Assembly (NCBI RefSeq): GCF_900103425.1
Contig: NZ_FMXA01000012.1
Span: forward strand, 12,860-72,354
Direction: 5' to 3'
DNA: 59,495 nt
Source: Dialister histaminiformans
Lineage (GTDB): Bacteria > Bacillota > Negativicutes > Veillonellales > Dialisteraceae
Made by a program: the position numbers and the translations under genes. Shown here one piece after another: positions 1,467-4,770 of this stretch (positions are counted from its first letter, which is position 1; each line of letters starts with the position of its first letter). The notes under the pieces are model-generated. The model made no database searches and was not told where the DNA came from. It saw nothing but the letters and a program-made list of their open reading frames with translations.

Positions 1467-3044
1467 ATGAACGCCAAAAACGGGACAATATACATTGTCT
1501 TAACGGCATTGGCATTTGGCACGATGGAAATTGCGCTGAAAATAGCTGGTTCATCTTTTACCGCATTTCAGCTCACGTTCCTTCGTTTTTTTATTGGCGG
1601 GCTGCTGCTGCTCCCGCTGGCAGTTAAGGATCTGATGCACAGACATGTGCACCTGACAAAATCAGATTGGATTTATGTGGCCATTCTGGGGATAATTAAC
1701 GTTATGTTCAGCATGGTGCTGTTCCAGATCGGGGTTAACAAATCCAATGCAGGGCTGGCAGCGATTGTCTTCTCCTGTAATCCGGTATTTACCATGATTT
1801 TCTCCTACTTTATTACGCATGATGCACTGACAAGGCAGAAGATTATCACCATTATTCTGTCCCTCATCGGCCTCTGTATCGTAGCCGATCCGGTGGCAAT
1901 TATTGAAAAGGGGAGCGTAGGCCTGCTCATCGTACTGGCAGCGGCCATCAGTTTCTCCCTGTATACCACATTGGGTAAGCTGCGCATTAAGAAGATAGGC
2001 GGCAGCGCCATGAACAGTTTCAGCTTCATCATTGGTTCTTTTGGTGTGCTGGCCATTCTATTCTTTACCCATGGCCCGATTCTTTCCGGCATTGATTCCC
2101 ACTCCATCTGGCCACTGATTTACACCTCTGTGGTGGTAACCGGATTTGGTTATGTATGCTTTATGAAGGCCATCGAACTGTCCGGCCCGGCCAACGCATC
2201 CTTTGCTTTCTTCATCAAGCCGGTAGTGGCACTGATTCTGGCGTCCATCGTACTGGGCGAACCGATTACCCTTCGCGCCGTTATCGGACTGGCTCTGATT
2301 ATTGCCGGCTGCGTTCTGGCTGGTCCGATCGAACGCCTTCTGTTCAAGAAGAAACTGTCCGAATATCCGGTACTGGATACTGAGCCAAAGAAGGCCAGCG
2401 AGGTAGCAGGCAACCCACTGGTAGTTACCGTATCCAGAGAATTTGGCAGTGGCGGCCGCGCTATTGGGCGCCGCCTGGCTAAAGAACTGGGCGTACCTTT
2501 CTATGATACGGAAATCATGCAGATGGTTGGCGAACGGGAAGGGCTGAGTCTGGAAGAAGTAAAGAAACAGGATCAGTCTATTGAAAACCGTTTTATCTAT
2601 AATCTGTTTGATAAATACACCCATCTGGCCTCCGGTGCCGTAGCACCTAAGGATGAACTGTTCCTGGCAGAGACCTCGGTCATTAAGGAACTGGCAGAGA
2701 AAGGTTCCTGTGTCATCGTAGGACGCCTGGCCAATGTCATTCTCAAGGACAGACCCAATACATTCAACCTGTTCATCGCCTCTGATCCGGAATGGGCAGC
2801 CCGCCGTGTCATGCTTCGCGAAAAGGTAGACAAAGCCACGGCACGCCGTATGATTGCCGATGTAAACAAACGCAGAAGCGAACACTGCCGTTACTACACC
2901 GGTACATTCTGGGGCTATGCAGCCAACTATGACCTTCTGCTCAAGTCCAGCGAATGGGGCATCCCTGAATGCATCAAACTGATTTTGAGCGCTATTCAGC
3001 ATCGACTGAGTCTTGAAGTAGCCAAAGACGAAGCCCAGGCATAA
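1467..3044 (+). CDS. EamA (DMT) transporter fused to cytidylate kinase-like domain
   Basis: 525 residues in one uninterrupted frame. Residues 1 to about 295 are a ten-helix drug/metabolite transporter: two EamA repeats, the first opening with ALAFGTMEIALKIAG and the second ending with LALIIAGCVLAGPIERLL. After a short polar linker, residues about 318-510 match the cytidylate-kinase-like family (Cytidylate_kin2): VTVSREFGSGGRAIGRRLA is the P-loop region and VPFYDTEIM follows as in that family. The join is in the membrane protein's cytoplasmic tail, so the kinase domain would sit in the cytoplasm. The start ATG follows AGAGGAGATG. Substrates of both halves are unknown. Normal family members are separate proteins of about 290 and 200 residues. 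Confidence 0.85.
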   Translation: MNAKNGTIYIVLTALAFGTMEIALKIAGSSFTAFQLTFLRFFIGGLLLLPLAVKDLMHRHVHLTKSDWIYVAILGIINVMFSMVLFQIGVNKSNAGLAAIVFSCNPVFTMIFSYFITHDALTRQKIITIILSLIGLCIVADPVAIIEKGSVGLLIVLAAAISFSLYTTLGKLRIKKIGGSAMNSFSFIIGSFGVLAILFFTHGPILSGIDSHSIWPLIYTSVVVTGFGYVCFMKAIELSGPANASFAFFIKPVVALILASIVLGEPITLRAVIGLALIIAGCVLAGPIERLLFKKKLSEYPVLDTEPKKASEVAGNPLVVTVSREFGSGGRAIGRRLAKELGVPFYDTEIMQMVGEREGLSLEEVKKQDQSIENRFIYNLFDKYTHLASGAVAPKDELFLAETSVIKELAEKGSCVIVGRLANVILKDRPNTFNLFIASDPEWAARRVMLREKVDKATARRMIADVNKRRSEHCRYYTGTFWGYAANYDLLLKSSEWGIPECIKLILSAIQHRLSLEVAKDEAQA

Positions 3045-3234: not shown

Positions 3235-3352
3235 TGGAGAGAAAGGGGGCCCATCTGATTTATCAGATGGGGGATAGTTGATTCCTCTATGTGTGAATAA
3301 GGGAAAGCACGCTTGTGTGCTCCGTCTGAAGTCTGATCGTCTGCAGACGGCC
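3235..3352 (+). repeat. Interspersed repeat (R4-type mosaic)
   Basis: Contains a hairpin (CCCATCTGATTTATCAGATG), then GGATAGTTGATTCC, GAATAAGGGAAAGCA and GTGCTCCGTCTGAAG. The same blocks recur at 46930-46990 and 47165-47215 with a different hairpin sequence (CCGACGAAGTCGG). It ends in the inverted repeat CCGTCTG/CAGACGG. It abuts the damaged gene that follows. Confidence 0.65.
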
Positions 3353-3517
3353 ATAGCAGTCTGCCTCGTGGAAAGTAGAGTCTTGTATGTTGACGCCGAA
3401 ACCAGGGAAAAAGCACTGTCTCTGGCCAGAGAGAAATACCGTCAGGGGGCTTTTATACTTGAGCCAGGTTATTTGCTGGATGTAAAATTTATCCCTTTAG
3501 CAACAGATGAAGAATAG
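3278..3517 (+). pseudogene. DpnD/PcfM-like small gene with lost 5' end
   Basis: Open frame of 79 codons. Only the last ~55 residues (from about 3350) look like a protein: VDAETREKALSLAREKYRQG and LLDVKFIPL closely match the intact 59-residue DpnD/PcfM-like protein at 4536-4715. The first 24 codons are repeat sequence, and no ATG or Shine-Dalgarno exists where the homologous start should be. The repeat appears to have replaced or invaded the gene's start. It lies 64 bp upstream of and in line with the DpnI gene, recalling the dpnC-dpnD pairing of pneumococcus. Initiation at TTG 3278 or an internal GTG cannot be excluded. Confidence 0.6.
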
Positions 3518-3581
3518 AAGATTACATCGGTGTTGAACCGGTTTGAAAGCTTCCTTTATAATCAGGATAAAGGAGGCCTCT

Positions 3582-4352
3582 ATGAATATCTGTCTTGATA
3601 TGTCCCTGACATCGAAATATACCAGCCATTCCCAGATGGCGCGGGTGGTGACAGAACAGTGGGTTGAAAAAAATATGTTCTGTCCGCGTTGTGGAGCAGG
3701 TCATATTATACATTTAAAAGCTAATCGTCCAGTAGCTGATTTTGCATGTCCACAATGTGGTGCAATTTTTGAATCGAAAGCGAAACGGGGGACTTTAGGA
3801 AGCAAAATTACTGACGGAGCCTATGAAACCATGATTCGCAGGATTCATGAAGCGGATAATCCGGATTTCTTTTTTATGTCCTATGATCTGGATAATGCCA
3901 GAGTGCGCGATTTCCTGATTATACCAAAGCATTTCTTTGTGGATTCTATTATAGAAAAAAGAAAGCCTCTGGCCGATACGGCGCGAAGGGCTGGATGGGT
4001 TGGATGTAATATCTTACTGGAAGAAATTCCATCTTACGGACGTATTTCGCTCATTCAGAATGGCAGGATAGCTGATAAAGAAGATATATGCCGGAAATAT
4101 CAAAGAACATCTTTTCTGGCAGACATGAACATCCCATCAAGAGGATGGCTCATGGACGTTTTTCGCTGTCTCGAAGACATAAAAACAGAAACATTTACAT
4201 TGCAGGAAATGTACCAATTCGAAGGCCGCCTGCAGATTCTTCATCCCGAAAATCACAACATCCGAGCCAAAATCCGCCAGCAATTGCAGTACCTGAGAGA
4301 CAAAGGACTGATTCAGTTCATGGAACGGGGCGTCTACAGGAAGATTCGGTGA
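3582..4352 (+). CDS. dpnC: DpnI-type methyl-directed restriction endonuclease
   Basis: 256 residues, against 254 for pneumococcal DpnI, and alignable end to end from memory: SHSQMARVVTEQWV, NRPVADFACPQCG, ITDGAYETMIRRI, KPLADTARRAGWVGCNI, PSRGW and KIRQQLQYLRDKG all have direct DpnI counterparts. The PD-(D/E)XK site is visible as ADF ... FESKAK, and two CxxC pairs (CPRCG, CPQCG) bind zinc. The C-terminal ~75 residues are the winged-helix domain. DpnI cuts GATC only when adenine is methylated, so the host should lack Dam methylation and the gene would act against Dam-modified incoming DNA. Start 3582 is chosen for AAAGGAGG eight bases upstream and for agreement with DpnI. It is flanked by small DpnD/PcfM-like genes on both sides. 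Confidence 0.95.
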   Translation: MNICLDMSLTSKYTSHSQMARVVTEQWVEKNMFCPRCGAGHIIHLKANRPVADFACPQCGAIFESKAKRGTLGSKITDGAYETMIRRIHEADNPDFFFMSYDLDNARVRDFLIIPKHFFVDSIIEKRKPLADTARRAGWVGCNILLEEIPSYGRISLIQNGRIADKEDICRKYQRTSFLADMNIPSRGWLMDVFRCLEDIKTETFTLQEMYQFEGRLQILHPENHNIRAKIRQQLQYLRDKGLIQFMERGVYRKIR

Positions 4353-4389
4353 TGTAGGCAAAATATATCTAAATATATCTGAAAATCAG

Positions 4390-4435
4390 AAAAAGCTGAA
4401 GAAAACCCAAAATCATGTGTTTTTTTCAGCTTTTT
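4390..4435 (+). terminator. Bidirectional terminator between dpnI and the convergent small gene
   Basis: AAAAAGCTGAA pairs with TTCAGCTTTTT around a loop of about 24 bases. It serves dpnI on plus and can serve the minus-strand gene at 4536. The 4441-4535 stretch holds only AT-rich sequence and a short GGGTACC/GGTATCC hairpin. Confidence 0.75.
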
Positions 4436-4535
4436 GTATGGGTAATTTTAAAATAATCAGAATTCAATAAAAATTATCTGTAGAGGAATAAAGTGAGTAT
4501 ATCCCAGTGTTGGGTACCTGAAAAAGGTATCCTTT

Positions 4536-4715
4536 TCATTTTTTATTATCCTTGGGTAAAGGGGTGATTTTTACATCCAGTAAATTCCCCGGTGCGAGTA
4601 TGAACTCACCTTGTCTGTATTTTTCCTGTGCCATGAGGATGGCTTCTTGTTTGTTGTTGGCATTGATGCAAAAGGTATCACTGATGGTTTCTTCGATGAG
4701 AATTTCAAATTGCAT
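4536..4715 (-). CDS. Small DpnD/PcfM-like protein, convergent with dpnI
   Basis: 59 residues, starting MQFEILIEETI and ending PLPKDNKK. The core QEAILMAQEKYRQG ... APGNLLDVKITPL matches the DpnD/PcfM-like pattern (short beta strand with I-E-E/T, an acidic or polar 'EA' helix, then Y..GE.IL). It is a close paralogue of the damaged gene at 3278-3517: both share EKYRQG, FIL.PG and LLDVK. GAAAGGAG sits six bases before the ATG, and a good promoter lies upstream (4742-4770). DpnD is the uncharacterised partner of DpnI in pneumococcus. A role linked to the nuclease is inferred from position only. The gene is easily missed because of its size. Confidence 0.8.
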   Translation of the reverse strand: MQFEILIEETISDTFCINANNKQEAILMAQEKYRQGEFILAPGNLLDVKITPLPKDNKK

Positions 4716-4741
4716 AAAGGACTCCTTTCAAAAGTGATCAG

Positions 4742-4770
4742 ATCGTATACCGGAATGGATATAAAGTCAA
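4742..4770 (-). promoter_or_regulatory. Promoter for the small DpnD/PcfM-like gene
   Basis: Minus-strand -35 TTGACT (4770-4765), 17-bp spacer, -10 TACGAT (4747-4742), 27 bp before the start codon, so the leader would be only about 20 nt. Between here and 5010 I see no gene. Confidence 0.65.

Follow-up and report, generated by a model that had tools for sequence, protein, structure and literature searches.

A predicted DpnI-type restriction locus of Dialister histaminiformans and the partnership of DpnI with small DpnD/PcfM-like proteins

Introduction

In Streptococcus pneumoniae, the DpnI-type nuclease is encoded by the dpnC-dpnD locus, in which dpnD, a small gene of the PF14207 type, lies beside the nuclease gene in an operon. 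To our knowledge, dpnD has been recognized for decades as a neighbor of the DpnI gene in pneumococcus with no function assigned to it, and no paper with dpnD as its subject was found in the open-access library searched. Primers that span the pneumococcal locus, dpnCup and dpnDdo, have been described (PMC3573125). In Neisseria, the DpnI homologue drg (dam replacing gene, NmeBII) is inserted at dam and truncates it (PMC4269198, PMC516771); the first of these reports makes no mention of dpnD (PMC4269198). Here we discuss a dpnI gene with two small dpnD-like neighbors in a window of 59,495 nucleotides from Dialister histaminiformans, and what a survey of DpnI loci in other genomes suggests about the small protein.

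The DpnI Gene and its Setting

The dpnI homologue occupies positions 3582-4352 of the plus strand, preceded by a ribosome-binding site (AAAGGAGG, 3567-3581, same strand). Its 256-residue product consists of a PD-(D/E)XK domain and a winged helix, and matches PF06044 (244.7 bits) and PF17726 (110.7 bits) at full length, both well above the curated cut-offs. It also matches the PADLOC model mREase_II (324 bits) and the solved structure of R.DpnI, 4esj (268 bits across residues 3-255). Residues D53 and K66 and the zinc cysteines C34, C37, C56, and C59 are invariant in an alignment of eight homologues; E64 is found in the window protein and its close relatives. These matches bear out the DpnI homologue of the original prediction. 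The gene is predicted to encode a complete DpnI, a methyl-directed GmATC endonuclease, and the locus to be a DpnI-type methyl-directed restriction unit. It is the only DpnI in the whole source genome. On one flank of dpnI, positions 1467-3044 form a single frame of 525 amino acids in which an EamA transporter (two repeats) is joined to a cytidylate-kinase-like domain; none of 11 genomes of the family has a full-length match to this fusion.

The source genome, which is 99% complete, has no recognizable D12 (Dam-type) methylase, and its one N6_N4 methylase match is below the cut-off, with none above it. Searches around dpnI with dam and CcrM/DpnA-like HMMs found no methylase scar. GATC is depleted across the whole window (106 observed, 229 expected).

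The Convergent dpnD Gene

Downstream of dpnI and convergent with it lies an intact dpnD/PcfM-like gene (4536-4715, minus strand) with an ATG start and a good ribosome-binding site (AAAGGAG) ahead of it. Such an intact 59-residue paralogue had been predicted from the DNA, and the profile search agrees: the product scores 34.1 bits with PF14207 (E 2.7e-8, cut-off 25) and covers profile positions 1-45 of 46. The product is thus predicted to be a true DpnD/PcfM protein. Its AlphaFold2 model is confident (pLDDT 90).

A strong hairpin between the two convergent genes (4390-4435; z -6.1 on the plus and -4.4 on the minus strand) is likely a two-way terminator, and we read the convergent dpnD as a unit separate from the dpnD copy of the dpnI operon. 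The promoter that had been proposed for it, TTGACT-17-TACGAT (4742-4770, minus strand), exists as a motif. Promoter-like sites in the region are, however, no commoner than in shuffled sequence (4 versus 5.0 +/- 2.1), so that the motif by itself is no evidence of a promoter. Two GATC sites 5 bp apart (4736 and 4741) lie directly downstream of the -10 element. A methylation-sensitive dpnD promoter was considered and dropped, since GATC is not enriched upstream of dpnI/dpnD in the 80 loci surveyed below (1.5 versus 2.2 per kb) and the host has no recognizable Dam. The source genome has a third PF14207 copy (C9:7135-7248) with no DpnI close by.

Linkage of dpnD to dpnI Across Genomes

A single scan of GTDB genomes yielded 80 DpnI loci, in which DpnD was sought with an HMM iterated from three seeds. 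DpnD is found at 30 of them, the nearest copy lying within about 320 bp of dpnI, overlaps counted. It is always on the strand of dpnI (30 of 30), downstream at 25 loci and upstream at five; dpnD is thus mostly 3' of dpnI, with gaps of less than 20 bp or overlapping starts. The pair occurs in Bacillota, Bacteroidota, Pseudomonadota, Planctomycetota, Campylobacterota, Spirochaetota, and one archaeon.

Whole-genome Pfam searches found PF14207 in 25 of 50 of the surveyed DpnI genomes, and 26 of the 28 copies are within 1.6 kb of DpnI, where random placement expects well under one. Among 398 Bacillota genomes only six have PF14207: four of the eight with DpnI and two of the 390 others (Fisher P = 1e-6). 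On the DpnI tree, the position of dpnD changes between 5' and 3' three times, with adjacency retained. The partnership of DpnI and DpnD is therefore well supported, and the view of DpnD as a partner of methyl-directed restriction has held up, the expected enrichment of the two genes as neighbors being strong. One argument that had been offered for it has not: the presence of related small genes on both strands of the window lends no support to a partnership, as DpnD shares the strand of dpnI at all 30 surveyed loci that carry it. The convergent layout was seen in the window alone among the surveyed loci. The strand rule makes the convergent copy a peculiarity of the window locus, and the convergent pair says little about function.

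The partnership is not an obligatory one. DpnD is absent from 50 of the 80 loci, which indicates that DpnI can act without it, and at least 21 gains or losses of it are needed on the DpnI tree, a patchiness that marks DpnD as dispensable. Taken together, the two observations would also fit hitch-hiking of dpnD with dpnI and later loss.

Other Small Genes in the dpnD Slot

Many of the DpnD-free loci have another small protein gene close to dpnI. The largest group, the uncharacterized family A8 (about 67 amino acids, MKKYIFIS.EG...; members L048, L061, L039, L090, L023, L027, L063, and L167-L169), goes unrecognized by Pfam and NCBIfam. It starts 0-9 bp after dpnI at seven loci, in Bacteroidota and Clostridia, with one copy per genome. 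In 395 Bacteroidota genomes, four of the five A8 copies adjoin DpnI, and the fifth follows an REase-like gene. A8 and DpnD share no locus (chance 0.03). Homology of the two families was considered and rejected by profile comparison (hhalign, probability 1%). Three smaller groups of small proteins are placed similarly by dpnI in Patescibacteria-like and rhizobial genomes. That small proteins with no relation to one another have repeatedly come to occupy one slot speaks for a role as partner and against passive linkage.

Methylase Genes and Scars Beside dpnI

About one-third of the 80 loci have methyltransferase genes or fragments beside dpnI, and whole-genome Pfam searches confirmed several of the shortened pieces. 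At 17 loci, dpnI (or dpnD, where that gene comes first) is immediately preceded by the end of a same-strand dam-like gene or fragment, in many cases a clearly shortened one. The dam-like sequences 5' of dpnI or dpnD are broken at differing places (L008:3-551; L018, L021, L030, L032, L037, L039, L040, L045, L048, L050, L054, L055, L064, L080, L088, L093, and L096), and at L008 the Dam fragment continues in frame into DpnD. CcrM/DpnA-like genes or fragments flank dpnI at 14 loci, mostly downstream. It looks as if a dpnI cassette has repeatedly replaced a dam gene across phyla. A DpnI gene inserted into dam has been described in Neisseria (PMC4269198, PMC516771), and by the evidence of the survey such events have recurred widely.

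At two loci, L037 and L039, a full D12 profile match, apparently a near-complete Dam-like methylase, adjoins an intact dpnI (ahead of it at L037), and at L039 an A8 gene follows dpnI. An active pair of Dam-like methylase and DpnI should be self-destructive; at such loci the methylase may be dead, its site may be different, or a small partner may restrain DpnI.

DpnD is found at 17 of the 27 loci with methylase scars and at 13 of the 53 without (Fisher P = 0.0013), an association that independent pairs on the DpnI tree did not confirm and that fails correction for kinship. Further D12 methylases are, by our count, present in nine of 25 DpnD-bearing and five of 25 DpnD-free genomes, a difference that is not significant.

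The gene that directly follows dpnI in two genomes of the Bacteroides group encodes DpnD and a CcrM/DpnA-like adenine methyltransferase as a single protein (L089:4444-5475 and L091:3463-4497), with both parts above the Pfam cut-offs. The fusion is 84% conserved between the two genomes, and its halves are under purifying selection (pN 0.08/pS 0.75 and pN 0.07/pS 0.85), with a looser linker; the structure model of the whole is unusable (pLDDT 37). The closest solved relative is CcrM, whose site, GANTC, DpnI would not be expected to attack. On a phage contig (L158:1094-1977), a gene for Mom DNA modification overlaps a DpnD gene by 4 bp, and the arrangement is near-identical in L160.

Properties of the DpnD Protein

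DpnD proteins are small, and most of them are acidic (median pI 4.4); the window copy is only mildly so (pI 4.9). Acidity would suit a DNA mimic, a DpnI binder, and other small proteins alike. Fold searches with the DpnD model returned no informative relative: the best match is a phage PcfM, and in the PDB one search found nothing at E <= 0.001 and a second reached a Z of only 2.0. The DpnD of L075 scores 21.9 bits with PF16857, the Gp2-like phage RNA polymerase inhibitors, below the cut-off of 27, and the DpnD profile aligns with a solved Gp2-like inhibitor at an E-value of 0.24; the possible likeness to these inhibitors is weak and a lead only. Neither query gave a close DpnD relative when plasmid and phage records were searched by tblastn. 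Copies of DpnD without DpnI occur in phage- and plasmid-like settings beside recombination genes, and in diverse phage contigs.

Possible Roles of DpnD

Our tentative proposal, to which we would give somewhat less than an even chance, is that DpnD tempers DpnI as a protein partner that the nuclease does not strictly need. Among the roles first suggested for DpnD (inhibitor, sensor, or specificity aid), the inhibitor or dampener is the one that we favor, on indirect grounds. We infer inhibition from several features together. DpnD is made together with DpnI, is dispensable, small, and mostly acidic, can be replaced by unrelated small proteins, and is carried by phages, which would gain from an anti-DpnI factor. 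The association of DpnD with methylase scars points toward a dampener as well, yet it is the association that kinship correction does not sustain. DpnD would bind DpnI at the protein level and damp its cutting, which would let cells that encounter methylated GATC sites acquire and retain DpnI, for example where dam has just been broken by an incoming dpnI and the chromosome is still methylated. In the source strain, the convergent dpnD copy would supply the function in trans, and the copies on phages and plasmids may serve as DpnI antagonists.

DpnD may instead aid DpnI, as a specificity or processivity factor or as a DNA-binding helper that is co-made for stoichiometric assembly. The nearly overlapping genes on one strand are what such assembly would favor, and the fused methyltransferase and the neighboring Mom gene fit a helper related to DNA or to m6A sites as well as they fit an inhibitor. 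DpnI has, however, been crystallized alone and cuts in vitro without DpnD (PMC4117772), and the nuclease is found without DpnD at most surveyed loci. We regard a positive role as somewhat unlikely.

Damping could be part of a wider arrangement, in which DpnI nucleases carry an exchangeable "governor" (DpnD, A8, or one of the further small families) in one slot. By restraining the nuclease, the governor would permit installation in formerly GATC-methylating cells through the breaking of dam, and phage and plasmid DpnD would be anti-DpnI proteins. As a whole this extension is speculative, and we consider it rather improbable.

It is unlikely, finally, that DpnD is a passenger, a phage or conjugative-plasmid (PcfM) gene that travels with dpnI and acts elsewhere, for example in DNA uptake or recombination, such that the neighborhood reflects shared transfer only. 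The DpnI-free copies beside recombination genes and in phage contigs, and the patchy presence of DpnD on the DpnI tree, are what a passenger would leave. Against it, nearly all copies in DpnI genomes adjoin DpnI, the adjacency survives moves between the 5' and 3' sides, and the same slot is taken by other small families.

With dpnD recurring beside DpnI across phyla, and unrelated small proteins taking its place, a partner of a widely used enzyme becomes open to direct test. If DpnD restrains DpnI, the damping would explain how a cell that methylates GATC can turn to cutting GATC when it is methylated, and DpnD would belong to a newly revealed family of anti-restriction proteins.

The Probably Eroded Upstream Frame

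The second dpnD/PcfM-like frame of the window lies upstream of dpnI on the plus strand (3317-3517; longest open frame from TTG 3278). It scores 23.8 bits with PF14207, just below the cut-off of 25 and over profile positions 11-40 only, and 50.9 bits with our own DpnD family HMM, as an incomplete relative. It has neither stop nor frameshift, and it has no ATG: the codon at the aligned Met is CTG, and the starts upstream of it are weak GTG or TTG codons only. Over the last 37 codons or so, the protein is conserved with respect to the downstream copy (pN 0.24, pS 0.78). The first 17 or so aligned codons are non-homologous to that copy and to the Dialister succinatiphilus gene alike (pN about 0.64). 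The two window copies are 43% identical across the alignment; in the DNA they form a 78-nt inverted repeat with 72% identity (3431-3508 and 4548-4625) that is confined to their 3' parts. A perfect 9-bp hairpin, CCCATCTGA/TCAGATGGG (3250-3271), lies upstream of the frame and is a possible operator or terminator.

A 5' end that was eroded or replaced fits these comparisons best. The nearest surveyed DpnI, that of D. succinatiphilus (74% identical), has an intact 59-residue dpnD on the same strand that ends 45 bp upstream of dpnI. The window frame occupies the same place, and we take it to be the original dpnD of the operon, now eroded. The original prediction had described a damaged gene 64 bp from dpnI; the distance to the dpnI ATG is right, and "damaged" is a fair word for a frame whose 5' end is unrelated, even though it is uninterrupted. 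That it instead encodes a functional DpnD whose N-terminus is new, with translation from GTG 3317 or TTG 3278 and the convergent copy redundant, would agree with the open frame and with the conserved C-terminal 37 codons, whose synonymous sites are saturated, but is very doubtful: the opening strand of the fold, which lies in the half of the model that is predicted best, is unrelated in sequence, there is no ATG or well-spaced ribosome-binding site, and the score is below the Pfam cut-off.

Comparison with Known Systems

As in the pneumococcal dpnC-dpnD locus, the DpnI of the window has a small PF14207-type gene alongside. Unlike in pneumococcus, the copy in the operon is eroded, and the intact one faces dpnI across a hairpin and has a promoter-like site of its own. 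The dam scar of Neisseria drg has counterparts of the same kind in many phyla of the survey, whereas no dam scar is visible around the window dpnI. PcfM of the enterococcal conjugative plasmid pCF10 and the DpnD/PcfM-like proteins of phages presumably lie away from DpnI; the DpnD of the window belongs to the same Pfam family as these proteins.
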